This document shows, piece after piece, positions 8,857 through 53,303 of a stretch of DNA of 64,000 bases. The stretch lies in the NCBI RefSeq assembly GCF_001623405.1, contig NZ_LUHG01000106.1, positions 1 through 64,000 of the forward strand. Reading direction: 5' to 3'. The stretch comes from Hydrotalea flava (GTDB lineage: Bacteria; Bacteroidota; Bacteroidia; Chitinophagales; Chitinophagaceae). The number at the start of each line of letters is the position of its first letter. Position 1 is the stretch's first letter. The position numbers and the translations under genes are program-made. Under the pieces are notes generated by a model. That model saw only the letters and a list, made by a program, of their open reading frames with translations, had not been told where the DNA came from and made no database searches.

Positions 8857-8976
8857 AAGTGAACGAAACACGAATCAGGAAACATTGAATAGAATAACAT
8901 ACCCTACCAAAACAGCAACAAAATAGTTCTATCAAAAGCGAATTATTTTACTTAACCTCATTTCAAACAACAAACC

Positions 8977-9333
8977 ATGAACTGCTATGTTACAAAAATG
9001 GTTTTCAGAATTATTTGTGGCGATGGAAACCATACACCCCAATTTGATGAACAAATCAGATTGTTTTATGCCCACAATCAACAAGCAGCTTTTCAAAAAG
9101 CAGAAACCATTGGCAAAGCAGAAGAAGATTGTTTCATGAACATTCACCAACAGCCTGTACAATGGAAATTTATTGCTATAACAGCCTTGTATAGTATACC
9201 ATCTCCAGCAGATGGTATTGAAATTGCCTCCCGCATTAAAGAAGTTGATGATGCCGACAACTATTTATATATTACTTACGAAAAAGCAGCACAGGTAACA
9301 GCAGCCAATTCATTACAAACACAAACCATTTAG
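8977..9333 (+). CDS. DUF4288-like small protein
   Basis: This is a 118-residue soluble protein. The order FDEQIRLFYAHNQQAAFQKA, then IGKAEED, then VQWKFIAI is that of DUF4288 proteins, which are small cytoplasmic proteins of unknown role. There is no signal peptide or membrane segment. It lies 7 bp upstream of the kinase gene, so it is almost certainly co-transcribed with the two-component pair. Confidence 0.6.
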   Translation: MNCYVTKMVFRIICGDGNHTPQFDEQIRLFYAHNQQAAFQKAETIGKAEEDCFMNIHQQPVQWKFIAITALYSIPSPADGIEIASRIKEVDDADNYLYITYEKAAQVTAANSLQTQTI

Positions 9334-9340
9334 TAATCAG

Positions 9341-10393
9341 GTGACCAAATCATTTTTACAGGGCAAGAGAAATTTAGCAGCACTCATTATTTGGTGGTTA
9401 GCCTGGATATTTTTGCAACAATACATATTAAAACATGCCGGCATTACAGAATTGATAGCTGTTACCGATAGTTATGTTACTATTATTTTATTGTTTGCCT
9501 GTTGCCTGCTAGTAATCAATAACATGCGTTATTATTTACCCAAAAAAGAAAAATACTGGTACAGTATTGCAGTTAGTTTAGTATTAAGCCTGGTGTGGGT
9601 TATGGTGTTAAGATGGGGCTTGGGTTTCATTTTTGCTAATAATGTTCCATACATCCAATTATTAAAAACAACACTATTGCTGCGTTTTGCTTTTGGATTT
9701 TTAATGATAGGCTGTATTACCCTGGTAAGTTTAAATTGGTATACACAAATAGATTGGATGAAAACACAAGCACAACAACATAGTATTAGCGAATTGGCTA
9801 AAGAAGCTGAACTATCTAAATTACGGCAACAACTACAACCGCATTTTTTATTCAACAGCCTAAATTCCATCAGCGCATTAACTACAGTACAACCTGAAAA
9901 AGCCAGGCAAATGATACAACAACTTTCTGAATTTTTGAGAGGCACACTGCGTAAAGAAGATAACTGGAATACATTAGAAGAAGAACTTTCCTATATTGGT
10001 TTATATTTATCGATAGAACAAGTACGTTTTGGACATAGAATGTTTACCGAAATAAATACCGACAGCAATGCATTACCGTTAATACTACCCTCTATGTTAT
10101 TACAACCTTTAGTTGAAAATGCCATCAAATTTGGCTTGTACGATACCATAGGGGAAGTAACCATTGGTATTAAAGCCACCAACCGAGATGGTGCACTAAT
10201 AATCACCATTCAAAACCCTTATGATGCATCAACTGCTGTAACCTTACCGGGAACCGGATTTGGATTAACAGCCGTAAAACGCCGGCTTTGGTTATTATTC
10301 GGAAGAAATGATTTAATAACCATTGAAAAAACAGATACTGAATTTATTACCACACTCCTTATTCCACAACATAAACCCAATATAATTGCTTAA
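9341..10393 (+). CDS. LytS/YehU-type sensor histidine kinase
   Basis: This is a 350-residue kinase with a GTG start. Four hydrophobic segments fill residues about 12-132. The His-kinase (PF06580) phospho-acceptor motif is QPHFLFNSLN with His168. The ATP-binding part has LLQPLVENAIKFG (N-box) and a glycine-rich GTGFGLTAVKRRL. No separate sensory domain is seen, so signal input probably comes through the membrane region, possibly with the LiaF-like protein. It sits directly before its regulator gene, as is usual for LytS/LytTR pairs in Bacteroidota. Confidence 0.9.
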   Translation: MTKSFLQGKRNLAALIIWWLAWIFLQQYILKHAGITELIAVTDSYVTIILLFACCLLVINNMRYYLPKKEKYWYSIAVSLVLSLVWVMVLRWGLGFIFANNVPYIQLLKTTLLLRFAFGFLMIGCITLVSLNWYTQIDWMKTQAQQHSISELAKEAELSKLRQQLQPHFLFNSLNSISALTTVQPEKARQMIQQLSEFLRGTLRKEDNWNTLEEELSYIGLYLSIEQVRFGHRMFTEINTDSNALPLILPSMLLQPLVENAIKFGLYDTIGEVTIGIKATNRDGALIITIQNPYDASTAVTLPGTGFGLTAVKRRLWLLFGRNDLITIEKTDTEFITTLLIPQHKPNIIA

Positions 10394-10394
10394 T

Positions 10395-11126
10395 ATGATG
10401 AATTGTATGATTATAGATGATGAACCACTGGCACGCAGTATTATTAAAGAATACCTGCAACAATACCCCAACATTCATTTGCAGGCAGAGTGCAGTGACG
10501 GATTTGAGGCAGCAAAGTTAATACCACAACATCAGCCCCACTTATTGTTCTTAGATATTCAAATGCCGAAAATTAATGGCTTTGAGTTACTAGAATTAGT
10601 AGAAACCACAGCAGTCATTATCTTTACCACTGCGTTTGAAGAATATGCCATCAAAGCATTTGAACAAAATGCTATAGATTACTTGCTGAAACCTTTCAGC
10701 CGCGAACGCTTTGACAGAGCCATTCAAAAAGTACTCAATAATCAGTCAACTACTACCACAGCAGCATTATTAGATACCATAGCTGCAACGCCACAAGAAA
10801 CCAACCGTATTGTAGTAAAAGATGGTACAAAAATTAAAATTATACCCGTAGCACAGGTACAATATTTAGAAGCGGCCGATGATTATGTAAAAATATTTAC
10901 CAAAGAAGGACATTATTTAAAGAAAAAAACTATGCAGTATTTTGAGCAAACACTCTCACAGCAACAATTTGCAAGAATACATCGCTCTTATATCATCAAC
11001 CTGCAACTCATTACTAAAATTGAATTATTGGAAAAAGAAAATTACATCGCCGTATTAAGTACAGGGCTGCAATTACCGGTTAGCAAAAGTGGCTATACGC
11101 GTTTAAAATCAGTTTTAGGTATTTAA
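10395..11126 (+). CDS. LytTR-family response regulator
   Basis: This is a 243-residue regulator. The start at ATG 10395, one base after the kinase stop, is preferred over an in-frame TTG at 10386. The receiver domain has acidic residues in IIDDE (positions 8-10), phospho-acceptor Asp54 in LFLDIQMP, and the conserved lysine in LLKPF. The C-terminal LytTR DNA-binding domain runs from about residue 145 (KDGTKIKIIPVAQVQYLEA) and includes FARIHRSYIIN. It partners the preceding kinase. A terminator hairpin follows at once. Confidence 0.92.
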   Translation: MMNCMIIDDEPLARSIIKEYLQQYPNIHLQAECSDGFEAAKLIPQHQPHLLFLDIQMPKINGFELLELVETTAVIIFTTAFEEYAIKAFEQNAIDYLLKPFSRERFDRAIQKVLNNQSTTTTAALLDTIAATPQETNRIVVKDGTKIKIIPVAQVQYLEAADDYVKIFTKEGHYLKKKTMQYFEQTLSQQQFARIHRSYIINLQLITKIELLEKENYIAVLSTGLQLPVSKSGYTRLKSVLGI

Positions 11127-11128
11127 AA

Positions 11129-11165
11129 AAACGGAATGCCGTTGATGTATTGCAGCATTCCGTTT
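11129..11165. terminator. Bidirectional intrinsic terminator
   Basis: A perfect 11-bp inverted repeat (AAACGGAATGC, with its complement at 11155-11165) and a 15-nt loop lies between two convergent genes, starting 3 bp after the regulator stop codon. A/T runs on both sides give a U-tract in either direction, so it can end both the two-component operon and the amidohydrolase gene. Confidence 0.8.
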
Positions 11166-11183
11166 CAAAAAAATGTTAGCAGA

Positions 11184-12458
11184 TTATTCTGATTTGTACA
11201 CTTTCCCGGCCTTCATCACAAACACTACTTTACCCATTACATTTACATCCTGCACCGGATCGCCATCCACTGCCACAACATCGGCCATTTTTCCTTTTTC
11301 AAGGCTACCAATTTTCGTATCGCCAATTAAATCGGCGGCACTAACGGTAGCGGCTTTAATGCATTCTAAAACAGGCATTCCTGCCTGGTGCATATAGCCA
11401 AATTCCATCCAGTTTTTTCCGTGGTTGTACACACCTGCATCAGTACCAAAAGCAATTTTTACGCCGGCTTTGTATGCTTTTGCAAAAGTGGCCTGAATAA
11501 CAGAACCTATTTGAATGGCTTTTGCCCGAATAATCGGTGGAAAATAACCCGGCATTTTTGTTGCAGAATCGGCTACCGATTTACCCGCAATAATGGTAGG
11601 CACTAAATAGGTACCTCTTTCCTTCATCAGTTCCATAATTTCGGGGGTCATATATGTGCCATGCTCAATAGAAGTTACGCCGGCTAATACAGCGCGCTTC
11701 ATGCCCTCCGGGCCATGTGCATGTGCAGCTACTCGCATACCATAATCTTTGGCAGTAGCTACAATGGTTTTAATTTCATCTTCGGTAAATTGTGCTCCGG
11801 CACCATCTTTCTCTAAACTTAATACACCACCGGTAGCAGTAATTTTAATTAAATCGGCACCATCTTTATAATGCTGCCGAACTGCCTTTCTACATTCATT
11901 ATCGCCATTTACTACATTTTCATTCAATTGCGGAACCATCATAATATCTTCTCTCAACCCATTCGTAGGATCTCCATGTCCGCCGGTGGTGGATATAATG
12001 GAACCTGCGGTAAAAATCCTGGGCCCCATCACCAACCCTTTATTCACTGCATTACGGAGTGCAATATTTACCCCGCTGCCTCCTACATCACGCACAGTGG
12101 TAAAGCCGGCCATTAAGGTTGTTTTAGCATAAACGGCTGCCTGAAAGGCAATATCAGCAGGATTTTGGGTTAACCGTTTCATCATGGCATCGGGACTGGT
12201 TTGGCTTTCCAGGTGCACATGCGCATCAATTAAACCCGGCATAACAGTATACTTTTTTAAATCAATTACTTTATCGTTAGGGCTTGCATTCACAAAACCT
12301 TTTTGAATATCGGCAACGGTATCGGCCTGTATAATAACGGACATGTCTTGCTGTACCGATAATTTATTTACATCAATTAAATGGCCGCAATAAATAATAG
12401 TTTTTTGAGCAAACGTTGTTTGATAAAACAACAGGGCCAGAAGTAACAGTTTTTTCAT
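11184..12458 (-). CDS. Exported amidohydrolase (imidazolonepropionase/prolidase-like)
   Basis: This is a 424-residue protein with a cleavable signal peptide ending near TTFAQ. The metal-binding motifs of the amidohydrolase superfamily are present: PGLIDAHVHLE (HxH), a lysine-containing GADLIKITATGG, AHAHG, SIEHGTYM and FGTDAGV with the catalytic Asp. It resembles the peptide- or prolidase-type subgroup, which hydrolyses C-N bonds with two bound metals. The signal peptide points to the periplasm. It stands alone between two terminators. Confidence 0.85.
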   Translation of the reverse strand: MKKLLLLALLFYQTTFAQKTIIYCGHLIDVNKLSVQQDMSVIIQADTVADIQKGFVNASPNDKVIDLKKYTVMPGLIDAHVHLESQTSPDAMMKRLTQNPADIAFQAAVYAKTTLMAGFTTVRDVGGSGVNIALRNAVNKGLVMGPRIFTAGSIISTTGGHGDPTNGLREDIMMVPQLNENVVNGDNECRKAVRQHYKDGADLIKITATGGVLSLEKDGAGAQFTEDEIKTIVATAKDYGMRVAAHAHGPEGMKRAVLAGVTSIEHGTYMTPEIMELMKERGTYLVPTIIAGKSVADSATKMPGYFPPIIRAKAIQIGSVIQATFAKAYKAGVKIAFGTDAGVYNHGKNWMEFGYMHQAGMPVLECIKAATVSAADLIGDTKIGSLEKGKMADVVAVDGDPVQDVNVMGKVVFVMKAGKVYKSE

Positions 12459-12512
12459 ATCAATTTGTTTGGTTAAAGGGGTTAAGATAAGGAATTAAAA
12501 TAGTACCCCCAC

Positions 12513-33199: not shown

Positions 33200-33266
33200 T
33201 CAATATAAGTCATGCACTACAACTTCTTACCACCATTACTGTTACTAAAGAGGATGATAATACACC

Positions 33267-33323
33267 GCATCATATAATACAAAATTAATCATTCAAAATC
33301 CTAAAAGCGTACGTAGTTTTACG
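33267..33323 (-). promoter_or_regulatory. Operon D promoter with CGTAG operator
   Basis: On the minus strand: operator at 33312-33323 (plus-strand CGTAGTTTTACG, 4 of 5 arm bases paired), 13-bp gap, -33 TTTTG at 33294-33298, 19-bp spacer, -7 TATGATGC at 33267-33274. The same layout with the same 13-bp gap is found in front of operons A, B and C. The downstream 33200-33266 shows no similarity to the long leader of the other three. Confidence 0.6.
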
Positions 33324-33425
33324 CTATTTTGTAAAATACCATCACCTGCAATTGTATGTTGTTGTATGCCAGTTTAAAAAAAACTTAACAAAACTCAAAT
33401 TAGGCAAGCCGTAAAGTAAAATACT

Positions 33426-37024: not shown

Positions 37025-37258
37025 TTAACGAAAACAACCATTTGCACCAGCTCTACTGGTCATGTAATTGGCTGCTGCTTGAGAAAGATCACTATAAGAG
37101 CAACCATTACAAGATACTGTGAAACTTAAAACCTGCCCACAGGCATCTGTAAAAGACACCCTAATAGAATTTAAATATTGATTTTGCTTTACTGTTGTTT
37201 TGGCATTTACAAAACCCAACATACCCACAAAACCAATGATTAATAACAGCTTTTTCAT
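37025..37258 (-). CDS. Small secreted four-cysteine peptide, operon A
   Basis: This is a 77-residue precursor. A signal peptide (residues 1 to about 19, ending FVNA) leaves a mature peptide of about 58 residues with cysteines at 40, 50, 53 and 75. The CNGC pair resembles a redox or metal motif, but no known family is recognised. It is the first gene behind the operon A promoter and is followed by a hairpin, then a GLPGLI protein and an outer-membrane barrel. It may be a disulfide-bonded product handled by these proteins; that is inference. Confidence 0.7.
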   Translation of the reverse strand: MKKLLLIIGFVGMLGFVNAKTTVKQNQYLNSIRVSFTDACGQVLSFTVSCNGCSYSDLSQAAANYMTSRAGANGCFR

Positions 37259-37274
37259 TGTAAATAATGTTTTA

Positions 37275-37520
37275 TTTTACCCTCCCCTGCCTAACGCTCA
37301 TGGGGTCGGATGTTCAGCGGATTTTTTACTTGCTTTGCTGCAAGGGGTAATACCTGTTTATTGCATGGCATTTGTAATAAACAGTATTTCCTGTTTTTTA
37401 CCGGTAAATGGTATGATGGGTGTACATCCAATCATATAAGGTAAAAATACTCACTACAAACCATAAAAACGTACGTAGTTTTACGCTATTTTGTACATAG
37501 TTCTACGCTATTTTTTAAAA
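37275..37520. repeat. Control-region repeat, copy A
   Basis: This is the most diverged of three copies (others at 42057 and 50322). The first 175 bp differ from copy B at about two positions, then differences mount near 37450. It contains the operon A promoter, two operators 22 bp apart (37474-37485 and 37496-37507) and the transcribed leader. Copies B and C look like this copy with exactly 22 bp deleted between the two operators. Confidence 0.85.
37429..37507 (-). promoter_or_regulatory. Operon A promoter with two operators
   Basis: On the minus strand: -33 TTTG at 37457-37460, 20-bp spacer, -7 TATGATTG at 37429-37436. Upstream, after a 13-bp gap, is the operator at 37474-37485 (plus-strand CGTAGTTTTACG), and a second at 37496-37507 (CATAGTTCTACG). 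The two sites are 22 bp apart, about two helical turns, so both face the same side of DNA. Confidence 0.65.
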
Positions 37521-41851: not shown

Positions 41852-42037
41852 CTAAAGTTTTATGGTTGCAAGACCACTTACCGATTTAACAGTTACGCCA
41901 CCAAGTGTAACTTTGTAACAAGTTTGTTTAGCAGCGGCACAACTAGCAGTCTGTGCTTTAGCAGTATTACTAAGTAAAACAAGCACCACTGCAACTAGTA
42001 CTGGCAATACAACTGATAATAGTTTTAATTTTTGCAT
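41852..42037 (-). CDS. Small secreted two-cysteine peptide, operon B
   Basis: This is a 61-residue precursor with a signal peptide (hydrophobic VVLPVLVAVVLVLL, cleavage near AKAQ at about residue 29). The mature peptide is about 32 residues with cysteines at 33 and 40 and a hydrophobic tail (GGVTVKSVSGLATIKL). It is too short for a known family match. Position, the strong promoter, and the hairpin right after it suggest high expression. The pattern resembles NVEALA-type peptide loci of other Bacteroidota, but that motif itself is not present. Confidence 0.7.
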   Translation of the reverse strand: MQKLKLLSVVLPVLVAVVLVLLSNTAKAQTASCAAAKQTCYKVTLGGVTVKSVSGLATIKL

Positions 42038-42203
42038 TATTAAGATTTTTATGTTTTACCCTCCCCTGCCTAACGCTCATGGGGTCGGATGTTCAGCGGA
42101 TTTTTTACTTGCTTTGCTGCAAGGGGTAATACCTGTTTATTGCATGGCCTTTGTAACAAACAGTATTTCCTGTTTTTTACCGGTAAATGGTATGATGGGT
42201 GTA
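42038..42203 (-). promoter_or_regulatory. Conserved transcribed leader of operon B
   Basis: From the predicted start site near 42203 to the peptide start codon is a leader of about 165 nt that is nearly identical in operons A and C. It can form small hairpins: 42158-42175 (6-bp stem, GAAATA loop), 42108-42123 (5-bp stem), and the palindrome TTTACCGGTAAA at 42176-42187. It may be a structured regulatory RNA, or simply a recent duplication. I recognise no known riboswitch. Confidence 0.45.
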
Positions 42204-42552
42204 CATCCAATCATATAAGGTAAAAATAATCACTCAAAACCACAAAAACGTACGTAGTTCTACGCTATTTTTTAAAACTTAAACAAAATTTGTATATGAT
42301 AGCTAAATAGTATAATATTGCTATATAAAATGTATCCCTGCATGGCAAGTACGATAAAAATAGCCATCATTGATGATCGTTTATGCGATTTGGAACTCAT
42401 TACCCATGCTGTGCAACGTATCAATGGTTGTTCCATTATCCTTAAGCATACCCGGCCCATGCAATTTTTTGAGCATTTAATGGAAAGTACCCAAATACCG
42501 GATGTGCTGATTACCGATTGCCAAATGCCCGAAATAGATGGCATGGCACTTA
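42057..42552. repeat. Control-region and regulator repeat, copy B
   Basis: This is almost identical to copy C at 50322-50817, displaced by 8,265 bp and in the same orientation. After the first 30 or so bases the only difference I find over about 470 bp is C at 42338 versus A at 50603. It holds the leader, operon promoter, operator, the regulator promoter and the first 70 codons of the response regulator. Similarity ends abruptly after GGCACTTA. Confidence 0.92.
42208..42264 (-). promoter_or_regulatory. Operon B promoter with CGTAG operator
   Basis: On the minus strand: operator at 42253-42264 (CGTAGTTCTACG, perfect 5-bp arms), 13-bp gap, -33 TTTTG at 42235-42239, 19-bp spacer, -7 TATGATTG at 42208-42215. 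This fits the Bacteroidota consensus TTTG-N19/20-TAnnTTTG with one mismatch in the -7 box. The operator just upstream of the -33 box fits activation by a regulator. Confidence 0.7.
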
Positions 42553-42566
42553 TTAGTTTAACTTAG
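42342..42566 (+). pseudogene. Truncated response regulator (5' part only)
   Basis: The first 70 codons are identical to the intact regulator at 50607, including the acidic pair IIDD and phospho-acceptor Asp59 in LITDCQMP. After ALI the frame runs into foreign sequence and stops at TAG 42564-42566. The DNA-binding domain is missing. It is convergent with the S41 peptidase gene, 6 bp away. It keeps its own promoter, so a receiver fragment could still be made. Confidence 0.9.
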
Positions 42567-42572
42567 TTTTTT

Positions 42573-43745
42573 TTATTTCAATAAATCAATCGCTTTTTCT
42601 AATTGAGGATCAGTTCCATTTTGTAGAGCCGAAAGATTAAATACAACAGAATAATCTGGAGGAAACCCCTTTCCCTCATAAATTTTACCATCAATATATT
42701 TAAATTTAGCAGATGAAGTTTGTACACTCATAAAACCGGGTATAGTAAAACTGCCATCATTATATAAATTATTATCACTAACAATCGGGCCTGTTGCACC
42801 AAACGTTTTTTCACCAACAAAAACAGAATTAGGTAATGCTTTAACTGCCATTACAGTGGCTTCCGCTAAAGAAGCTGAAACATTATCAGCTAAAACAATA
42901 ATCGGAATGTTTAACTGCTTTGCACTTTGTTGTGGCTTAATATAAGCTGTAAGCCATGAGCTATAATCAAATCTTCCATTGCCAGTTTTATACTGAGTAT
43001 AACCAAAAATCAAGGGTTTATTAATCAACCTGCCAATTAAAAAATTTAAGTCGCTTAAATCACCTCCATAATTACTTCTTACATCAATTATTAATCCTTT
43101 TATATTGGCAGACAAGTTATTTAATGTACTGAAAAATGAATTTAAAATGGGTTGTATTTTATTAGCTGTTGTTGAATAGTATGCTTTTGACAATGAAAAA
43201 TAATTACAAGAAAAAAATAAAATATTATGCTGAATAGTTCCGTATAAAACAGTTGAAGGCTGCCCTCCGTATGAATAAGAATTCTCAACACCTAATTGAT
43301 AATTTGCATCTAAATAACCTGTATCTACTTTATAAAAAGCATACGGATTATGAAATCCGTATAAATTCTTTTTCTTATCATAAGCAGGATAAATAAATGA
43401 ATCTATAATAGCATTTTGCATAAATGAAATATAATAATGCCCATCCATTATGGTTTTTGTCATCTCTTTAAAATAAGAAACACTCTTTTTTATATCGGCA
43501 GTGTTATTCAAATCTAACTTTGCAAATACAGGCTTATATTTTAGATACATCTTATTCCAATTGGTTGTATCAATATCCCAATAAACGTAATTTGCATTCA
43601 TTTTATTCCAGTATTGCTCAAACACATCATTAAAGGTTTTAGGAGTGTTGTTATTTATTGGAAAAGTAATTTTCTTACATGAAATACAGAAGATAAAGCT
43701 CAATATGCTTATAACGAACCAATATTTGAGCAAATTATTTTGCAT
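42573..43745 (-). CDS. S41-family peptidase-like lipoprotein
   Basis: This is a 390-residue lipoprotein (signal ILSFIFCISC, then KK). The C-terminal part carries the S41 (tail-specific/CPP) fold: GLIIDVRSNYGGD, then VLADNVSASLAEATVMAVKA, then FVGEKTFGATGP. The serine in SASLAEA fits the catalytic nucleophile. No PDZ domain is obvious. It should act in the envelope on unfolded or C-terminal peptide segments. It ends the duplicated module operon, with no counterpart after the first module copy. Confidence 0.82.
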   Translation of the reverse strand: MQNNLLKYWFVISILSFIFCISCKKITFPINNNTPKTFNDVFEQYWNKMNANYVYWDIDTTNWNKMYLKYKPVFAKLDLNNTADIKKSVSYFKEMTKTIMDGHYYISFMQNAIIDSFIYPAYDKKKNLYGFHNPYAFYKVDTGYLDANYQLGVENSYSYGGQPSTVLYGTIQHNILFFSCNYFSLSKAYYSTTANKIQPILNSFFSTLNNLSANIKGLIIDVRSNYGGDLSDLNFLIGRLINKPLIFGYTQYKTGNGRFDYSSWLTAYIKPQQSAKQLNIPIIVLADNVSASLAEATVMAVKALPNSVFVGEKTFGATGPIVSDNNLYNDGSFTIPGFMSVQTSSAKFKYIDGKIYEGKGFPPDYSVVFNLSALQNGTDPQLEKAIDLLK

Positions 43746-43757
43746 TGATTTTAATTT

Positions 43758-44492
43758 TTAAATATGTAGATGCAACATGTAGCCTATATAGATTACAATT
43801 GTTTGATCGTATTGCATAATTTGATTAATGCTATATTTTTTTTGCTGTGAAGTAAGCGACTGGTAAAATCTTGCATTACAAAACAATGAATACTTTTTAT
43901 TAAGTTGATAGGTTGTTGTTATTCCCGCCAATGCACCAAACTCAAAACGATTATCTTTTGTATTATTGAATTGATATTTTTGGGAATAGTTTGTATAGCG
44001 TAAATAGTGTGTAATTTGTCCGTTTGTATTTATGCTATCATAACTGCTATATATATTAGGGATAACGCCCTTTATTTTACCAAAAGCCCAATAGGAAACA
44101 AAGAATCCAGCATCAGTAAAAAATTGCCATTTGTTTTTTTGAAAGATTTTATACTGAAAAATGATTGGTAATTGTAAATAAAGGTTTCTGTATTTCGTAT
44201 ATATACCCGTATAATTTACAGTGCGAACAAATGAGTAATCTTTATGCAGTAAATCTATTTCTGTTTGTAAATTTATTTTATTGTTACATTTATAGTTTGA
44301 TATTATGGCAGTACCAAAACCATTACCATTTTTGTTTTGAGTAAATGTTCGATTAGAAATGTCAGTTTGTAAATGATTATTAGTATAAGCTGCTGAAAAT
44401 CCTATGCTAAATTGGGATATTCCTTTAAAGTAAAAACCTAATGCAAGAGTAGCAAATACTATTTTATAGCTTTTACTTAACAAGTATTTCAT
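43758..44492 (-). CDS. Outer-membrane beta-barrel protein, module copy 2
   Basis: This is a 244-residue protein with a signal peptide ending near GISQ and alternating strands of a small outer-membrane barrel (PorT-like group): FSIGFSAAYTNNHLQTDI, INLQTEIDLLHKDYSFVRTV, FQYKIFQKNKWQFFTDAGFF. It is a paralogue of the frame-shifted gene at 47027-47744. Its start overlaps the upstream gene by 20 bp, so translation is coupled. Function is unknown; it is the fourth gene of the module. Confidence 0.75.
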   Translation of the reverse strand: MKYLLSKSYKIVFATLALGFYFKGISQFSIGFSAAYTNNHLQTDISNRTFTQNKNGNGFGTAIISNYKCNNKINLQTEIDLLHKDYSFVRTVNYTGIYTKYRNLYLQLPIIFQYKIFQKNKWQFFTDAGFFVSYWAFGKIKGVIPNIYSSYDSINTNGQITHYLRYTNYSQKYQFNNTKDNRFEFGALAGITTTYQLNKKYSLFCNARFYQSLTSQQKKYSINQIMQYDQTIVIYIGYMLHLHI

Positions 44493-44985
44493 GTGTATTT
44501 AATGCCTCTTTTAAAAAGCATTCATATTTTGTTTTTGGAAATTTGCAATCCTTTAAAGTTAAAATATACCAAGTACCATATTTCTTTGTTTTTTTTACTT
44601 TTATTTTTTTCACCGTTACACTGTCACCTTTATGTATAAAGCCTAACAATTTATCATGTTCTCGTGAAACTGAAGCACCATAAGGATAGTTACTTCTATA
44701 ACTTTCCTCTTCACTATTTCTGAAGAGCCATAAAGACCAATTGAATGGACTTTTAAAACTTATATAATTATACCACCCATATACAGTATCAGAACCCTTG
44801 CCAATATACAATGTCTGATTTATTGTAATAATACTATTATTGCTTAAAATAATAGTATCATTATTCTCGGAGACATAGTGAATTTTTATAGAATCATTAC
44901 TAGATAAAATATTACTTTGAGCATAGGAAAAACTAACTCCTATGCTCAAAATAAAAGAAAGAATGCACTTTTTACTTATACTCAT
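44473..44985 (-). CDS. Secreted module protein, copy 2
   Basis: This is a 170-residue exported protein (signal ending SFSYAQ) and a paralogue of the protein at 47766. Shared landmarks are IITINQTLYIGKGSDTVYG against KIYEGLTLQVGSGSGINGI, GDSVTVKKIKVKKTKKYG against GDRLVVKRITKKGNKKFG, and a C-terminal NTHEILVK against NSKEILL. It is mostly beta-strand. I recognise no named family. Confidence 0.7.
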   Translation of the reverse strand: MSISKKCILSFILSIGVSFSYAQSNILSSNDSIKIHYVSENNDTIILSNNSIITINQTLYIGKGSDTVYGWYNYISFKSPFNWSLWLFRNSEEESYRSNYPYGASVSREHDKLLGFIHKGDSVTVKKIKVKKTKKYGTWYILTLKDCKFPKTKYECFLKEALNTHEILVK

Positions 44986-45010
44986 TTAAGAAAGCGAATT
45001 TATAAAATTA

Positions 45011-45355
45011 CTAATTTTTAAAATGCAAAATGAGTGCTACTGGATTAGTGCCATCGTTTACCATTACTTTAGCCACATCATAATAATTTAAGTATAATAA
45101 ATTAAAAATTTGTAATTGGTTCTGAATTGAAATAAATCCATTTGAAAAAGACCATGTTGTGCCTAAAGTTGGTGAAATATTTGTCGGGAATCCTCCATTA
45201 TCTGTCCAAGCAATTATCCTATGTATGTTATTATCCTTAATAACTTTTTGCAATTCTGTTGTTATCCGGTCGGCAGGAGTTTGAACCGTTTGCTTAGTAC
45301 AAGAAAAACTAAGTAATAATAAAAGTAGAACAGTAAATAATCTAATATCTTTCAT
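45011..45355 (-). CDS. Small lipoprotein, module copy 2
   Basis: This is a 114-residue lipoprotein (VLLLLLLSFSC, then TKQ). It is a weak paralogue of the protein at 48295: both start the mature part with a short helix (ITTELQKVIK against ITAAKLQKVMA) followed by strands and end with a short aromatic stretch (LILHFKN against NNWFLYF). No domain is recognised. It is the second gene of the module. Confidence 0.65.
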   Translation of the reverse strand: MKDIRLFTVLLLLLLSFSCTKQTVQTPADRITTELQKVIKDNNIHRIIAWTDNGGFPTNISPTLGTTWSFSNGFISIQNQLQIFNLLYLNYYDVAKVMVNDGTNPVALILHFKN

Positions 45356-45366
45356 AAAACTATAGT

Positions 45367-46896
45367 TTAATTATTTACGATATTTGCCAAGAAGGTTTTT
45401 ATAATAGTCGATTTAGGAGCACCATTATTGGGAACAACATCAAAAATCACACGTACCGCTGCCTGATTGGAAGGTTGAGAGCCATGTTCCAAAGTATAAT
45501 TAGTTGTTACGGATGTGCCTGTATATACATTATAGCTACCTACTGTTTCATTATTACCAAATGCCTGAAAATTATAAGCTGTATTTGGATTTAAAATTAC
45601 AACTTGTGTTTGTAAATTTTTTATAATAGCCCCATCAGACAAACTATTTATAACATTAGGGTTGGTAATAAAAGCAGAATTAAAAATATTACTATTTACG
45701 GTATACAGATTTGTGTATTTAGTAGAGGGCACATTAACTCCACCTTCATTGACATAAACAATAGACGTTGTTGTATGTTTGTTAATAATAGGGGTTGATG
45801 AAAGACTAAAAACCCCCATTGGTTGATTATAGCCAGGAATGTAACCACTTGCAGACTGACTATTTGAAATACCGGGAATACCTATACCTAAACCAGGATC
45901 TGGTATAAAAGCCCCACTTTGAGATGAAGTACCGGTTAATTGAATTTTTGTATTCATTGTTAAATTTACTTCTTGTGTATTAGAACTACTTCCACCAAAT
46001 ATTCCATTGAAAATATTTTTCACTACACCAGATAATCCACTTTGCAATCCGTCTTGAATTGACTTGAATATGTTACCAGGCAATCCTAATGTATTTTGTG
46101 TATAATTCGTTTTATCACCTCCAGCATTGTTGCTAAAGATAGCCAACCCTGTTGCCTCTAATGCTCCTTGTGTGAGGAGCCCTGATATATCAAAGCTAGG
46201 AGCAGGTGTTGATATCGTACCATTAATTGTTCCTTGTTGTGTGCCTCCTAAAGCTATACTTGATACACTTGTCCACTTCAAAGTCCAATTTAATCCTAAT
46301 TGCTGGTATGTGCTTGTTACAATATTAGGGTCATAGGCAATTTCATATTGAGAGGCATACCATGTACCCGTAGCCAATTGAGTAGGCTCAATTTTTGAGA
46401 TTGAAGTTTGGTTTTTTGTTACATCAACTACATCTTGTCCTATATAATTTAGCATAGAAGAAGAAATGGAGTTGGGCGCTAAATTCAGACCACTTGTTAA
46501 ATAATCCGATGCAACAAATCCGTTATTAGTAACATAAACATAAATCCGTAACAATCCTCTATACTTATTATACAATGCAAACCAAGGATTGGCAGGTAAA
46601 GAAGTTGTATTGAAAACATTATATACTAATGTCCAACCATCACTACTTTTATAATCATACCAAATATCAGGAGAAAACCCTTTTACTGAACCATTTGCCC
46701 AAGGCACTAAAATAGATGTACCAGTTGGTGTTGGCATGTAATCGGCTGTTTCCCAACTTAATGGAAATGGTTGTATGCCGTCGGTTCCAGTTGTAGAGAT
46801 AGAAGAATTTAAATTTTTTTTACAGCCTGTTGAAACTAAGGTTGCAAATAAGAATAATAATAATACTAAACGAAAAAGTCGAATTGAGTTTTTCAT
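45367..46896 (-). CDS. Large module lipoprotein, copy 2
   Basis: This is a 509-residue lipoprotein (lipobox cysteine at 25). A paralogue at 48635 shares the order TDGIQPFPLSWETADYMPTP, YRGLLRIYVYVTNNG, YEIAYDP and the closing STIIKTFLANIVNN. In the middle (about 271-302) is a glycine-rich hydrophobic stretch (GLPGNIFKSIQDGLQSGLSG and on) between beta-rich halves. It could insert into membranes or stack against a partner, but no known family is recognised. It heads the second module copy, with 130 bp upstream and no recognised promoter of its own. Confidence 0.7.
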   Translation of the reverse strand: MKNSIRLFRLVLLLFLFATLVSTGCKKNLNSSISTTGTDGIQPFPLSWETADYMPTPTGTSILVPWANGSVKGFSPDIWYDYKSSDGWTLVYNVFNTTSLPANPWFALYNKYRGLLRIYVYVTNNGFVASDYLTSGLNLAPNSISSSMLNYIGQDVVDVTKNQTSISKIEPTQLATGTWYASQYEIAYDPNIVTSTYQQLGLNWTLKWTSVSSIALGGTQQGTINGTISTPAPSFDISGLLTQGALEATGLAIFSNNAGGDKTNYTQNTLGLPGNIFKSIQDGLQSGLSGVVKNIFNGIFGGSSSNTQEVNLTMNTKIQLTGTSSQSGAFIPDPGLGIGIPGISNSQSASGYIPGYNQPMGVFSLSSTPIINKHTTTSIVYVNEGGVNVPSTKYTNLYTVNSNIFNSAFITNPNVINSLSDGAIIKNLQTQVVILNPNTAYNFQAFGNNETVGSYNVYTGTSVTTNYTLEHGSQPSNQAAVRVIFDVVPNNGAPKSTIIKTFLANIVNN

Positions 46897-47026
46897 AAGC
46901 TAAGTGTCTAATCTATAACAAAAGAAAAACTTGAATATTAATAATATATCACCTAAATGTTAATAATGTATTATTTATTTAAGGGTATCTCTAAAAACCT
47001 AAGAACTGAAGCAATATTTTGCATTA

Positions 47027-47744
47027 CTATCTATTTTTTGCATGAAAATTAAACATACAGCCTGTAGAAATTACACTGGTTTGATTATACTGCATAATCT
47101 GGCAAACAGAATAACTTTTTTGTTGTGAAATGATAGATAAGTAAAATATTGTATTGACAAAAATAATGTCTGTTATTAAGTAGATACCTTGATGTTATAC
47201 CCACTAATGGTACCACCTCAAATCGATTATCATTTAAATGAGAAAAAGTGTATTTTTTATAATAATCAGAAAAACGTAAATAATTTGTCACTAAACCTGT
47301 AGCATCTATGGTATAGTAACTATCAAACAAATTAGATATTACTCCCTTTATGCTTCCAAAAACCCAATAAGAAACAAAGAATCCGGCATCGGCCGATAAT
47401 GCCCATTTAGTTTTTTGTAGTAACTTGTATTCAATAATAACCGGCAATTGTAAATATGTATTTCTGTAATTTGCAAAAATACCTTCGTAAATCCCTTTGC
47501 GAACAAATGAATAATTTTTTTGCAATACATCTAATTCAGTTAGTAATTGAATTTTATTTTTATATGCATAGTTAAATATTAACCCTGTACTAAAACTATT
47601 GCCATTCTTATTTTCAATAAACAAACGATTAGAAATATTGGTTTGTAAATGATTGTTAGAATAACCCGCAGATATCCCTATACCATGTTGTGTATTGACA
47701 CATGTTAACATAAAAACGGAAAGCAAAATAAATGTTTGCCTCAT
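47027..47744 (-). pseudogene. Outer-membrane barrel protein, module copy 1, frame-shifted
   Basis: The first 190 or so residues run in one frame from ATG 47744 and match the paralogue at 43758 (GISAGYSNNHLQTNI; NADAGFF-type strand ALSADAGFFVSYWVFG). Near a five-A run at 47159-47163 the frame changes: the present frame stops at 47085, while the alternate frame continues with SQQKSYSVCQIMQYNQTSVI, matching SQQKKYSINQIMQYDQTIVI of the paralogue, to a stop at 47027-47029. Removing one A restores the full barrel. It may be a real mutation, a slippage site or a sequence error. Confidence 0.8.
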
Positions 47745-47765
47745 TCTCTTATATTTTAATGACTA

Positions 47766-48248
47766 TTAAAGGAGTATTTCTTTACTGTTAACCGCCAGTT
47801 CAATATTACAAACCACTTTAGTGTGTGGTGCTTGTGTTCTTTTAAGTAGTAAATAAAACCAATAACCAAACTTTTTATTTCCTTTTTTGGTTATTCTTTT
47901 TACCACTAACCTATCTCCGTAATGTAATAGCTCTTTTAATATATCATTCTGCCTGTCAAATTCAGGATTTACCCTATTCAAATAAGTGGTTTTCATTTCT
48001 GCATCATGAAATAGCAATAAGTAGGCATTTAGTTGTGTTTTAAATCTAATCTGCTGATAAATGCCATTTATACCTGAACCACTGCCAACTTGTAAGGTTA
48101 AGCCCTCATAAATTTTATAACCGGTATTGGTGATTAACGTATCATTTTCTAGACGATAACTGGTACTGGGGTATATGGTTTCACTTCTTGTTTGTGAAAA
48201 ACAAAAAAAAGGACATAAAAATAGCGTAATCAAACAAATACGAAACAT
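47766..48248 (-). CDS. Secreted module protein, copy 1
   Basis: This is a 160-residue exported protein from ATG 48248; the longer frame from 48323 would run into the upstream gene and bury the signal peptide (ITLFLCPFFCFSQ). It is a paralogue of the protein at 44473, with matching GDRLVVKRITKKGNKKFGYW and ending NSKEILL. Predicted to be mainly beta-strand. Function is unknown. Confidence 0.7.
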   Translation of the reverse strand: MFRICLITLFLCPFFCFSQTRSETIYPSTSYRLENDTLITNTGYKIYEGLTLQVGSGSGINGIYQQIRFKTQLNAYLLLFHDAEMKTTYLNRVNPEFDRQNDILKELLHYGDRLVVKRITKKGNKKFGYWFYLLLKRTQAPHTKVVCNIELAVNSKEILL

Positions 48249-48294
48249 TGAAGTTGTTTTAAGCCCGAACCCTATATTCCGGTTATGCGGAAAA

Positions 48295-48624
48295 TTAAAA
48301 ATATAAAAACCAATTGTTGCCATTGCTTAACACCACATTAAAGTATTTCTTCAATAAGCTTAAGTTGTAGGTAGCATAAACAGCCTGATAGGCCACCATA
48401 ATGTAACCATCATTTGATATATTAACGAGTCTCCCTTCCGATTGCGCAGATGTTCCATCTACATTGTATACATATACAATATCTCCCTTAGCCATTACTT
48501 TTTGAAGCTTAGCTGCTGTAATTTGCCCTTGAGTTGGTGCTGCAATTTCCTTTTTGCAAGAAGATATACTTAATCCAGACAGCAATAACAGGAAAACTAC
48601 AATTTTAATTGAAAAAGCGCTCAT
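48295..48624 (-). CDS. Small lipoprotein, module copy 1
   Basis: This is a 109-residue lipoprotein (LLLLSGLSISSC, then KKE). The mature part holds a short helix (ITAAKLQKVMA) then beta-strands (GRLVNISNDGYIMVAYQ). It begins 10 bp after the large lipoprotein gene, so the two are tightly linked. It is a weak paralogue of the protein at 45011. Confidence 0.65.
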   Translation of the reverse strand: MSAFSIKIVVFLLLLSGLSISSCKKEIAAPTQGQITAAKLQKVMAKGDIVYVYNVDGTSAQSEGRLVNISNDGYIMVAYQAVYATYNLSLLKKYFNVVLSNGNNWFLYF

Positions 48625-48634
48625 ATTGATACAT

Positions 48635-50278
48635 TTAATTGTTTACCATATTGGCTAAAAAAGTTTTTATGATTGTTGATTTTGGAGTAATCCCATTGTT
48701 GGGTACAACGTCAAATGTGATTCGAACAGCAGCATAATTATTACGAGGCTGCACTCTAGGTACTGTATACGTTGTACCAACGGATGTTCCAGTAATAACT
48801 GTATGAGTTCCAATGATGCCGAGATTTCCACCAATGACGGGATTTGCAGACAAATCTGGGTCAATTAATACTACTTCAGTTTTTAAATTTTTAATTGTAG
48901 CACCAGTTGATGAAGAATTTATAACTGACGGATTCCATAAATAATTAATTGAAGATGCATTAACTGTGTATAAATTATCATATTGATAATAGATGCCACC
49001 ATTTTGATTTACTTTAATTGAATTAGTATGTATATTGACAATGGGCTTGGAAGATAAATTAAAAATACCTAAACTATTTGTATACAATGGAATATAACCT
49101 TGTGCAGTAATTGGATCTATGATTGTCCCAGGTACATATACAGAAGCGGGACTTGCGGGAAAAAAACCTTTACTTGTACTAGTACCATCCAATTGTAGCT
49201 TTGCATTGAGCGTTAAACTTATTGTTTGAGCATTGCTGTTTCCGCCTATTATTGCACTTAATAATCCTGCAACTGCTCCTGGAATATTGCCAGTTGCAGC
49301 AGAAAATGCACCATTTAGTCCCTTCTGAAGTGCTGTGAAAGTTTCATTTGACAAACCTAATTTATTGTTAACTGTGGTAGGTGTGTATCCCTGTATTGTC
49401 CCATCTGGATTTACTATTGGGATTACTGCAGAAAAATTACCGCTGGCATTATTTACAGCAGAACTACCTGCCAAAGAAAGACCTGCTGTTGTGACTACGT
49501 CTAATCCTTTTAAAAGAGATGAACTAATATTAGACGTAGAAGATCCAACAGTACCATTCACACTACCTATCAATGGCCCTCCCAATGATATTTTGGAAAT
49601 ACTATTATAATTGGTGTACCAACTCAATTGAATATTGTTATAATTTGTGTTCGCTAAATTGGGGTCATAGGCCATTTCATATTGTAGCATGTACCACTTT
49701 CTGGTTCCTAAGGGAGCTGAGCCATCTGGTGGGCCTGGTTCTATTTGTGAATATGATAATTGATTTTGAGAAACATCAACAATATCATTACCCAAAAAAT
49801 TTAATATACTTGTAGTTCCAGATGTTGATGCTGTAAGCCCATCAACTAAATAATCTGAATTAGCAGAAACTTGGGAAGTTACAAAAAAATAAATACGCAT
49901 TAATCCTCGATATCTATTATACAAAATAAAGTAAGGATCCTCTAACGGCCCGGGGGAATTTGGGTCAAAACTATTATACACTAAAACCCAACCATCAGTA
50001 GCCTTGTAATCATTTGCTACATCAATACCATAAACAGAAGTTATGCTTCCCTGCCCAATCCATGGTGGATTTATTAAAGATTGACCTGCAACAGTGGGAG
50101 TAGGCATCCAATCAACTGTTTCCCAATTAAAGTTAAAAGGTTGTATCCCGTCCTTTCCTTGTACTGCTATTGAAGCATTAAAGTGTTTTTTACAACTTGT
50201 AAACATGAGCGAACTCAACATTAAAATAAAAATAAACCATTTTGAATAAATAGATTCAAAATTACGTATTTTTTTCAT
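48635..50278 (-). CDS. Large module lipoprotein, copy 1
   Basis: This is a 547-residue lipoprotein from ATG 50278 (an in-frame TTG at 50284 is less likely); lipobox cysteine at 29 in LMFTSCKK. It is a paralogue of the protein at 45367, sharing GIQPFNFNWETVDWMPTPT, YRGLMRIYFFVTSQ, YEMAYDPN and the C-terminal STIIKTFLANMVNN. A glycine/alanine-rich hydrophobic stretch lies at about 308-346 (NGAFSAATGNIPGAVAGLLS). It is the first gene of operon C, behind the CGTAG promoter and a leader of about 190 nt. No family is recognised. Confidence 0.7.
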   Translation of the reverse strand: MKKIRNFESIYSKWFIFILMLSSLMFTSCKKHFNASIAVQGKDGIQPFNFNWETVDWMPTPTVAGQSLINPPWIGQGSITSVYGIDVANDYKATDGWVLVYNSFDPNSPGPLEDPYFILYNRYRGLMRIYFFVTSQVSANSDYLVDGLTASTSGTTSILNFLGNDIVDVSQNQLSYSQIEPGPPDGSAPLGTRKWYMLQYEMAYDPNLANTNYNNIQLSWYTNYNSISKISLGGPLIGSVNGTVGSSTSNISSSLLKGLDVVTTAGLSLAGSSAVNNASGNFSAVIPIVNPDGTIQGYTPTTVNNKLGLSNETFTALQKGLNGAFSAATGNIPGAVAGLLSAIIGGNSNAQTISLTLNAKLQLDGTSTSKGFFPASPASVYVPGTIIDPITAQGYIPLYTNSLGIFNLSSKPIVNIHTNSIKVNQNGGIYYQYDNLYTVNASSINYLWNPSVINSSSTGATIKNLKTEVVLIDPDLSANPVIGGNLGIIGTHTVITGTSVGTTYTVPRVQPRNNYAAVRITFDVVPNNGITPKSTIIKTFLANMVNN

Positions 50279-50472
50279 AAGCAAATAATTTTATGTATGA
50301 TGTTAAAAAAAATAAATAATTACCCCCTCGTGCCTAACGTTCATGGGGGTCGGATGTTCAGCGGATTTTTTACTTGCTTTGCTGCAAGGGGTAATACCTG
50401 TTTATTGCATGGCCTTTGTAACAAACAGTATTTCCTGTTTTTTACCGGTAAATGGTATGATGGGTGTACATC

Positions 50473-50529
50473 CAATCATATAAGGTAAAAATAATCACTC
50501 AAAACCACAAAAACGTACGTAGTTCTACG
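50473..50529 (-). promoter_or_regulatory. Operon C promoter with CGTAG operator
   Basis: On the minus strand: operator at 50518-50529 (CGTAGTTCTACG), 13-bp gap, -33 TTTTG at 50500-50504, 19-bp spacer, -7 TATGATTG at 50473-50480. It is identical to the operon B promoter. The same operator also lies upstream of the regulator promoter on the plus strand, so one site could serve both directions. Confidence 0.7.
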
Positions 50530-50553
50530 CTATTTTTTAAAACTTAAACAAAA

Positions 50554-50585
50554 TTTGTATATGATAGCTAAATAGTATAATATTG
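50554..50585 (+). promoter_or_regulatory. Response regulator promoter
   Basis: TTTG at 50554-50557, a 20-bp spacer and TAATATTG at 50578-50585 match the Bacteroidota -33/-7 consensus with one mismatch. The predicted start site is about 15 nt before the ATG at 50607. The operator at 50518-50529 sits about 25 bp upstream of the -33 box, so autoregulation is possible. Confidence 0.6.
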
Positions 50586-50606
50586 CTATATAAAATGTAT
50601 CCATGC

Positions 50607-51290
50607 ATGGCAAGTACGATAAAAATAGCCATCATTGATGATCGTTTATGCGATTTGGAACTCATTACCCATGCTGTGCAACGTATCAATGGTTGTTCCA
50701 TTATCCTTAAGCATACCCGGCCCATGCAATTTTTTGAGCATTTAATGGAAAGTACCCAAATACCGGATGTGCTGATTACCGATTGCCAAATGCCCGAAAT
50801 AGATGGCATGGCACTTACCCGTTTGGTGCATTTGTTTCTTCCACAAGTAAAAACAATGGTTGTTTCCGGTTTATTGTCAGAATTGGATGTAGCAGAATTA
50901 TTAGATATTGGTGCCAGTGCCATTGTAGCAAAAGGTTCATTGCAAATAGCAAAGAACAATACCTTACAAATGGCTATTGCTGCAGTTACACACAATAAAA
51001 TTTTTATTGACCCTATTTGGGAAGAAACACTTGTACAAAATACATTTAACCAGTTACAGAAAAAAAAAGAACACCGGCAAACACCCGATTTCTCTGAACA
51101 TGAACAAAAAATCATACAATTACTGGCTACCCATCATCAATATAAAACCATTGCCCAACTCATGCACTTATCGCACCGTACTGTTGAAACACATGTAAAA
51201 AAAATAGCAGAAAAAGCCGGCACCCATAATAAGGCACAAATCATTGCCTATGGTATTAAAAATTTTTTTATCCGTGTATTCCGTGGCTAA
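50607..51290 (+). CDS. LuxR/NarL-type response regulator
   Basis: This is a 227-residue regulator from ATG 50607. The receiver domain has the acidic pair in IAIIDD, phospho-acceptor Asp59 (LITDCQMPEIDG), the MVVSG switch residue and lysine in IVAKGS. The LuxR-type helix-turn-helix is at about 160-215 (YKTIAQLMHLSHRTVETHVK). No histidine kinase is nearby, so it is an orphan here. It is divergent from operon C and is the best candidate to bind the CGTAG-TT-CTACG operators found at four promoters in this window. Its first 70 codons are duplicated at 42342. Confidence 0.92.
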   Translation: MASTIKIAIIDDRLCDLELITHAVQRINGCSIILKHTRPMQFFEHLMESTQIPDVLITDCQMPEIDGMALTRLVHLFLPQVKTMVVSGLLSELDVAELLDIGASAIVAKGSLQIAKNNTLQMAIAAVTHNKIFIDPIWEETLVQNTFNQLQKKKEHRQTPDFSEHEQKIIQLLATHHQYKTIAQLMHLSHRTVETHVKKIAEKAGTHNKAQIIAYGIKNFFIRVFRG

Positions 51291-52133: not shown

Positions 52134-52298
52134 TTTTTTTTACTTTTTTTTGTTAAATAGCTCAACAAATGAAAAAGATAAACAGCATTTCCTGTATTTT
52201 GTATATCTGTTTTCGTAAATCTAAATTTGAAAGGATGGGTTCTGCTTTGCTTCAATGAATGGCTTAGCTGCTTTCTGTTCTTCTTTGCACCGGTGCTC

Positions 52299-53303
52299 AT
52301 GAAAAAAATGGTACTATTTTCCCTACTACTTTCTATTTGCCAACATTTGTGGGCACAAGACCCGCATTTCTCTCAATTTTTTTCATCGCCTTTAACCCTT
52401 AGCCCAGCTTTTACCGGTAAATTTGATGGCAATATTCGGGTGGCCGGTAATTACCGCAACCAATGGCCCACCATTAACAATGCCTTTACCACCGGTACTG
52501 CTTCAGTTGATTTTCATATTATGCAAAATAAAATTGCCAGTAATGATGTATGGGGACTAGGTTTTATGGCCTATAACGATAACAGTGCCAATGGCGCCGT
52601 CAAATTTAATTATGCTACCGTTTCAACCGCCTACCATAAAGGCCTAGATGAAGATGGCAATAACACCATTGGTTTAGGTGTGCAATTAACATATGCTAAT
52701 ATGATAATTAACACTGCCGGACTTACATTTGAAGACCAGTTAACCAGCAATGGATTTACCGGTGTTACCAGCGAAGTGTTTAATGGCGCTACTTTAAAAT
52801 CGAATTACATGGATGTGAATGCCGGTATTTTATACAACGGAAGTACCACCGATAAAAATAATTTTTATTTTGGCGTTAGCCTGTATCATATTACCCGCCC
52901 TCAGCAATCTTTTACGGGGGCTACCTATACGCTCAATCCGCGTGCCACCCTACATGCGGGTACTTATTTTCCTATTAGTGATAATACTACTTTACACCTC
53001 AGTGCTTTGCAAAGTTTTCAGGGCGGCGCCTCTGAAACAGTGATAGGTGGTGCTTTTCAGTTTACCCCCACATTAAATTTAGAGCAGGATGTTAGTGTAT
53101 ATGTAGGCACCTGGATGCGGCTAAGAGATGCGTTTATTCCCTATGTTGGGTTAGAATATGGCAACTTTAGGTTGGGGGCATCCTATGATGTAAATACTTC
53201 CGCTTTAAAAACAGCATCACAGGGTGTGGGCGGCATTGAAATATCACTCATTTATATACAGAAGAAAAGTGATGCCAAACCTATTAACTGCCCCAAATTT
53301 TAA
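52299..53303 (+). CDS. PorP/SprF-family type IX secretion membrane protein
   Basis: This is a 334-residue protein from ATG 52299 (signal peptide VLFSLLLSICQHLWAQ). The mature start DPHFSQFFSSPLTLSPAFTG is the family signature, and the rest is an outer-membrane barrel (GFMAYNDNSANGAVKFNYAT). PorP/SprF proteins help export and surface attachment of type IX substrates, often next to a large surface protein gene; no such gene is beside it here. Confidence 0.9.
   Translation: MKKMVLFSLLLSICQHLWAQDPHFSQFFSSPLTLSPAFTGKFDGNIRVAGNYRNQWPTINNAFTTGTASVDFHIMQNKIASNDVWGLGFMAYNDNSANGAVKFNYATVSTAYHKGLDEDGNNTIGLGVQLTYANMIINTAGLTFEDQLTSNGFTGVTSEVFNGATLKSNYMDVNAGILYNGSTTDKNNFYFGVSLYHITRPQQSFTGATYTLNPRATLHAGTYFPISDNTTLHLSALQSFQGGASETVIGGAFQFTPTLNLEQDVSVYVGTWMRLRDAFIPYVGLEYGNFRLGASYDVNTSALKTASQGVGGIEISLIYIQKKSDAKPINCPKF

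Follow-up and report, generated by a model that had tools for sequence, protein, structure and literature searches.

A twice-repeated envelope gene set in Hydrotalea flava resolves into predicted variable lipoproteins and a portable barrel–peptidase pair

Does a run of envelope genes that occurs twice in succession encode one surface complex? The question is raised by a 64,000-nt stretch of DNA recorded as Hydrotalea flava (contig NZ_LUHG01000106.1; hereafter the window). It is contig C72 of a genome of 3.4 Mb, among the near relatives of which are Sediminibacterium magnilacihabitans and a second Sediminibacterium. Two diverged sets of four genes lie there head to tail on the minus strand (43758-50278), each encoding a large lipoprotein (A), a small lipoprotein (B), a small secreted protein (C) and a small outer-membrane barrel (D). 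A first-pass annotation, made from the sequence, had proposed that the four products may form one complex. Our comparison of loci across genomes leaves a closed complex unsupported, as the parts distribute independently, and it points instead to a locus of variable lipoproteins combined with a portable pair, namely D and a peptidase of family S41. The reading that we favor, at a probability of about 0.4, is a surface capture operon in which A, B and C would be the capture set and D–S41 the portable pair.

In the list of open reading frames (ORFs), the gene order is A1-B1-C1-D1-A2-B2-C2-D2, and all eight frames were found at the positions annotated at first pass. The order is therefore real, but the unit is not one of four genes: an S41 peptidase gene starts 12 bases past the end of D2, and we count it as a fifth member because it is present in every module locus compared. 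The first copy consists of A1 (547 aa, 48635-50278, with SCKKHF in its N-terminal region and 94% identical orthologues in G002:C8 and G003:C316), B1 (109 aa, 48295-48624), C1 (47766-48248) and D1 (47027-47744, frameshifted). The second consists of A2 (509 aa, 45367-46896), B2 (114 aa, 45011-45355), C2 (170 aa, 44473-44985) and D2 (244 aa, 43758-44492). A single S41 lipoprotein gene (390 aa, 42573-43745; Peptidase_S41, E 5.8e-18) stands for both copies. Gaps within each set measure 10 to 46 bases, with C2 and D2 overlapping instead, and D1 and A2 are spaced by 130 bases. The frame of C1 reaches 48323; its start is most likely at 48248, where the orthologues start, which gives a protein of 160 aa.

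How far the genes stay together can be judged from seven Sediminibacterium module loci (the window, L008, L009, L010, L040, L041 and L042, with L040 and L041 from the same genome), in which C and D were looked for within the fetched stretches. A, D and S41 are found in all seven, B in six (it is absent from L008) and C in four (the window, L041, L042 and L009, in the last of which it comes after S41); C is an optional member of the module. In every intact locus compared, S41 directly follows D. Close relatives of A stand without B, C, D or S41 alongside in Pedobacter (L012) and in two Chitinophagaceae genomes, G174 (L043) and G310 (L044). In G310, A and a D–S41 pair lie at separate places, and the A of a further locus (L011), at the end of a contig, is broken. 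The set recurs in Sediminibacterium, as these seven loci show; elsewhere B, A and D–S41 are each found apart. The outcome named at first pass as a refutation, homologues that stand alone, is largely what we see, for A and B singly and for D, which occurs with S41 without A.

Portability of the pair is best followed outside the genus. An S41 profile search at E 1e-40, taking at most the six best candidates per genome, matched 16 of 294 genomes of the taxonomic family. Outside the genus it gave 13 S41 genes in 12 loci, all of which were fetched. A relative of D lies directly upstream on the same strand in 12 of 12, including L165 and L167, in which an opposite-strand ORF masks it; A is present in none. 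Both copies of D in the window exceed the Pfam cut-off of 27 bits for OMP_b-brl_2 (PF13568), D2 with 51.4 bits (E 1.8e-13) and D1 with 30.7 bits (E 3.9e-07), and a TDE1717-like match (NF049866) falls below cut-off. What separates D from small barrels of that kind at large is that its relatives beside S41, matched by the D profile at E 1e-36 to 1e-60 outside the genus, form a narrow group. In the stretches fetched, no D is immediately adjacent to the weaker S41 relatives, namely that of L101 and the large ones of L170 and L171.

The genes upstream of the pair differ from locus to locus. In L166, where families were scanned, there is a large frame that looks SusC-like by eye, followed in the list by a SusD protein and two lipoproteins, one matching a metallopeptidase family and the other LEA_2, both below cut-off; L165 and L168 carry look-alikes of these genes, as judged by eye. 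D and S41 are here the end genes of operons resembling the SusC/SusD uptake type, whereas the window module has neither SusC nor SusD. A TonB receptor and a 103-aa protein precede the pair in L169, where families were scanned, with look-alikes by eye in L170 and L171. L164 has three tandem lipoproteins of ~410 aa (8384-12467, minus strand) with repeated GNGH/GYG motifs and no Pfam match, and L174, which holds two S41 genes, has LRR and RCC1-repeat proteins behind SusD-like- and TonB-like-looking genes. Nothing envelope-like was noticed directly upstream in L167, L172 or L173, and in L176 the contig ends there.

The peptidase itself is predicted to be active through a candidate triad of the tricorn type, H103/S290/E357, for which we take the His-Ser-Glu catalytic roles from tricorn. 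The triad is kept in 19 of 20 aligned sequences, the exception being L174b, which is without the His and the Glu. Prc/Ctp peptidases of family S41 use a Ser-Lys dyad with the lysine within a TFGK motif; no lysine stands at the equivalent position in any of the 20 sequences, which have alanine, glycine or threonine there. The best-scoring solved sequences (PDB 4l8k and 8vcb) are of the tricorn or retinol-binding-protein type, and a Tricorn_C1 hit falls below cut-off. The predicted peptidases of the window's group differ from that type in being lipoproteins of about 380-430 aa tied to a small outer-membrane barrel gene. The C-terminal tail of A was considered as a substrate of S41, an idea weakened by the retention of that tail in L012, L043 and L044 without an adjacent S41; G174, the genome of L043, has no S41 match at 1e-40.

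To what family, then, does the large lipoprotein belong? No Pfam or NCBIfam match to A, B or C surpassed E 0.06, and PHROGs gave none. For A1 and A2 there was no Pfam match at E up to 1, and so no SusD/RagB domain match. The first-pass statement that the module has no recognised family accordingly holds for A, B and C and fails for D, which is above the OMP_b-brl_2 cut-off. At E 1e-5 a profile of A matches 21 of 294 genomes of the taxonomic family and, taking at most the three best candidates per genome, 15 of 395 drawn from the phylum (the window's own genome is counted in both), with E values down to 4.1e-25 outside the family. Two scans of viral contigs found no relatives of A.

Distant members of this protein family (n = 26, 550 to 1264 aa) could be aligned over a core of up to about 400 residues in common with A. 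Broken or partial sequences were left out of the alignment (those of L011 and L130, and those of L048 and L133, each in two pieces), as were L050, L117, L124 and L125, where the A-like ORF is not re-found. Positions common to at least 60% of the 26 are, in A2 numbering, W48, P65, GWxL, LYNxYxGxxR, W179, YDP, LxGT, PG and YN...G.F...TP, and A2 has this core. A sorting tail of the type IX secretion system (T9SS), Por_Secre_tail, is found in 24 of 37 A-family members scanned, and any other Pfam family in at most one. We infer that all 24 tailed proteins are among the 26 distant ones, because members 1, 2, 10 and 11 gave no hit when scanned singly, the close members end in a KTFxAN tail, and L126 and L128 are the distant ones without a type IX tail. 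The likeness to T9SS type A cargo (PF18962/TIGR04183) therefore lies in the common core and in the tails of these relatives, whereas A1 and A2 have no Por_Secre_tail match in Pfam or NCBIfam, carry a lipobox instead and end in KTFLANxVNN. The longer end that the two share, STIIKTFLANxVNN, and their glycine-rich middle had both been noted at first pass, and both are real. We place A in a Bacteroidota family of surface proteins that has no name, as a lipid-anchored branch. Loss of the T9SS as the reason for lipid anchoring was rejected: SprA_N is present in four of four genus genomes, and 11 tail matches, some below cut-off, were found in the window's own genome (G000).

The distant branch keeps other company. 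A conserved lipoprotein of ~265 aa, which we call P, occurs in 14 of 33 fetched distant A loci. In 11 it immediately precedes the A-like ORF in the same orientation, so that the two make up a second two-gene unit (L045, L047, L048, L049, L053, L057, L058, L116, L128, L129 and L130, with gaps of at most 85 bases between open frames); the other three are L050, L117 and L133. The A profile re-finds the A-like ORF in 29 of the 33 loci, missing L050, L117, L124 and L125 at E 1e-3. This adjacency makes P, and not B, C, D or S41, a frequent partner of the distant A family. A Pfam scan of two P proteins gave no family, and profile alignment with hhalign gave a probability of 45.6 against B, over 17 columns near the N-terminus, and of 0.1 against C; we take P to be probably unrelated to either.

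Structural comparison leaves A without an assigned fold. A model from six sequences was poor (pLDDT 55.1, pTM 0.47), with beta-sandwich domains and, between two beta regions, a helical glycine-rich stretch. No PDB relative of A was found by sequence, and a superfamily profile matched PDB only through the T9SS tail region. The only Foldseek match with E below 0.001, an archaeal fusexin (probability 0.15, rmsd 33), was not accepted, and VIA-align gave Z values of at most 5.4, below 8, so no fold is claimed. Pfam gave no MACPF match for A, whose model is too poor for a structural judgement on this point.

The small lipoprotein B has a distribution of its own. Its profile matches 21 of 294 family genomes at E 1e-3, with strong matches outside the genus in five Chitinophagaceae (G123, G185, G188, G194 and G281; E 4e-24 to 3e-38), and in none of these five loci does the fetched stretch contain a neighbouring A, C or D. 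In one of these stretches (L101), a weakly matching S41 relative lies a few kilobases from B. Elsewhere, B is thus a solo lipoprotein. A model of B2 (pLDDT 83.9) gave no convincing PDB or viral match: the best PDB hit had E 0.36, with Z 4.9 against a portion of a glutamine synthetase. Degraded pieces of B also lie at contig ends in the window's genome and in G001 (L105, L106 and L107), in sequence common to several contigs.

A literature search over abstract openings found no paper on this gene set, in line with the first-pass remark that no described system of this composition was known; we claim that absence for this search alone. We tentatively propose, at less than even odds, that in Chitinophagaceae D–S41 constitutes a portable pair for processing at the outer membrane, not described before, which is attached to many surface receptors (SusC/D, TonB receptors, tandem lipoproteins and the A family), and jointly that the A family represents a surface domain of Bacteroidota, likewise undescribed, that has switched between type IX and lipid anchoring.

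Why does the set stand twice in the window? A1 and A2 are 48% identical (E 6.5e-107), D1 and D2 57% over 180 aa (E 5e-73), and C1 and C2 33% (E 2e-18). BLASTP of B1 against B2 (26%, E 0.094) is unconvincing alone, but a profile from four B sequences, with B1 and its two orthologues held out, matches B1 at E 5.1e-08. The copies are thus related yet well diverged, as annotated, by direct comparison for A, C and D and through the held-out profile for B. In a tree of A, A1 groups with the A proteins of L041 and L042 at 100/100 and A2 lies outside, its own placement weakly fixed, so the tandem copies are not a recent duplication. In the D tree, D1 goes with L041 and L042 (98/99) and D2 next to that group (87/92), and the window's S41 takes no firm position in its own tree.

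Both L041 (G002:C8) and L042 (G003) have the order A1-B1-C1-D1-S41; their A proteins share 94% identity, and their S41 proteins 81-84%, with those of the window. Directly after D1, the window retains 12 bases (47013-47024, minus strand) identical to those that follow D and open S41 in these two loci. The A2 set begins after this remnant, and a full S41 gene comes only after D2, so that the A2-D2 block sits inside an older A1-D1-S41 operon; either it was inserted there or a deletion took place between two complete modules. Aligned as DNA to its L042 orthologue, D1 carries a two-base deletion at 47165 and its open frame stops at 47085, so that the position and barrel identity first given for it stand and its intactness to 47027 does not; the frameshift may reflect genuine damage to the gene or an error in sequencing. 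Across 15 comparisons of five genes (A1, B1, C1, the 5' part of D1 and S41) among the window, L041 and L042, dN/dS is 0.07-0.43, with dS saturated in one, which indicates purifying selection on these genes. The first-pass view that the set has been maintained over time is borne out to that extent, the A2-D2 block being without a close orthologue. Of another S41 gene, contig C6 of the same genome keeps just the final part; the genes next to it resemble, in their first residues, those upstream of the L040 module, and this is probably what remains of a lost module. The window has a further tandem duplication at 14872-15139/15958-16225 (94% identical DNA) and 15274-15737/16348-16814 (75%), with ORFs of 201 and 197 aa.

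As for regulation, three stretches of the locus begin with copies, 94-99% identical, of a leader of ~220 bases: the module itself (50320-50539, the leader or promoter region, minus strand, shared with G002:C8), a unit that opens with a 61-aa Cys peptide (42056-42274) and a unit with a GLPGLI gene that opens with a 77-aa Cys peptide (37277-37495); a shorter piece (33261-33336) precedes a CarbopepD/OMP_b-brl_3 gene. Genome-wide, the repeat is found at four places and nowhere outside this locus. A palindromic site, TAGCGTAGAACTACGTA, scanned genome-wide with up to 2 mismatches, occurs at five places in the 3.4 Mb, each within or right next to one of these leaders and each on the same strand (50516-50532 upstream of A1, and 42251-42267, 37494-37510, 37472-37488 and 33310-33326, minus strand), and the reversed control pattern at 0. 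Divergent from the module lies a response regulator gene with a LuxR-type DNA-binding domain (50583-51290, plus strand; Response_reg, E 6e-12, and GerE, E 2.5e-10), of which a truncated copy is found at 42318-42566. The palindrome suggests a local regulon of the module and three other envelope units beside this regulator.

Other readings of the leader and regulator were set aside. An integron attC was dropped, the repeat being at four places that are all in this locus. A search of 30000-52000 against Rfam found nothing at E up to 1, and folding was only modestly better than shuffles (z -2.18), so no RNA element is claimed. The regulator matched a CARF-labelled PADLOC model (7.1e-07) over its DNA-binding end, which we read as the common helix-turn-helix. 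Several neighbors deserve mention in their own right. The secreted Cys-containing peptides of 61 aa (41852-42037, minus strand) and 77 aa (37025-37258, minus strand) are each the first gene after a leader copy, the former followed by a MauE/CarbopepD-OMP unit and the latter by a GLPGLI/891-aa CarbopepD unit; no family was found for the 61-aa peptide, and the two could be signals or bacteriocin-like. A direct repeat of 498 bp (98.8% identity; 42056-42552 and 50320-50817), made of leader and regulator gene start, flanks the whole module and reflects either recent duplication or gene conversion. A PorP/SprF-type gene (PF11751) is also close to the locus (52227-53303, plus strand).

In the capture operon that we favor, A, with B and C as accessories, would bind a protein or peptide ligand at the cell surface; D would hold the S41 peptidase at the outer membrane; and the peptidase docked there would trim either the ligand, once captured, or its receptor. 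Binding of the divergent regulator to the palindrome would turn the whole locus on, and two diverged capture sets in one likely operon would be served by one peptidase. An uptake role is preferred because the same D–S41 pair ends SusD and TonB-receptor operons. That A is surface-exposed is plausible. A1, A2, B1 and B2 have a lipobox-like cysteine after the signal peptide and S41 has a lipobox-like N-terminus; the first-pass claim that all products are exported is upheld as far as signal sequences go.

Several observations weigh against this reading. The Capnocytophaga surface-export signal (LES) is, as PMC5080379 gives it, K-(D/E)2 or Q-A-(D/E)2 close after the cysteine; A begins CKKHF or CKKNL, without these acidic residues, and could face the periplasm. 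The LES is, however, also missing from all nine SusD-like N-termini with a readable lipobox (one doubtful) among 13 SusD-like loci of the same genome, so the rule may not apply here, and three or four of the nine (CKKDF, CQKNF, CKQSF and CSKNF) resemble A. The pair need not serve a receptor, given the three loci without a cargo gene (L167, L172 and L173) and the one cut by a contig end (L176), and the SusC-like and SusD-like calls outside L166 and L169 were made by eye. Ligand binding is putative, with A, B and C lacking a solved relative and the A model poor (pLDDT 55). The proposed regulon is drawn from the common palindrome, and ten other A loci, when scanned with a stricter motif, yielded no site; L041, one of the ten, has the leader, with a degenerate site.

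The main rival to uptake is a maturation role for S41. A would then be a surface adhesin or matrix protein that S41 matures or sheds, with D as outer-membrane holder and no nutrient involved. The T9SS surface proteins among distant A relatives speak for it, as do the conservation of one A type at 94% identity between species and the beta-sandwich model of A, weakly like adhesin and integrin Ig domains; a Z under 8 from so poor a model says little, however. The D–S41 pairs behind SusD and TonB-receptor genes point to uptake instead, and the A proteins of L012, L043 and L044 have the same C-terminal tail with no S41 adjacent. We regard this explanation as unlikely, though worth keeping in view.

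Improbable is a defence or competition unit in which S41 degrades antimicrobial peptides, with the Cys peptides as its targets or signals. Nisin resistance protein, which degrades an antimicrobial peptide, is the model, and the S41 relationship of the peptidase and the sharing of leader and site by the module and both peptide units fit it. Yet D–S41 recurs in quite other settings, PADLOC matched none of the module proteins scanned (all but D1), and the 61-aa peptide is without a family. We give least credence, and very little, to A as a pore-forming protein whose producer is protected by B, C and D, after the manner of Bacteroidales antibacterial surface toxins. The adjoining of two diverged types and the helical glycine-rich stretch between beta regions, in a poor model, would suit such a toxin, but A matches neither MACPF nor any other Pfam family at E up to 1, B found alone is unlike a dedicated immunity protein, and A1, 94% conserved between species, is not diversifying.

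Returning to the capture operon and its portable pair, the apparent four-gene complex resolves into two reusable parts. A conserved barrel–protease pair behind both uptake and surface operons would make a common role testable by one gene deletion, and the private palindrome may offer a handle on when the set is made. Finally, a widespread surface domain without a Pfam or NCBIfam model, with type IX and predicted lipid-anchored forms, would provide a natural comparison of two export routes in Bacteroidota.

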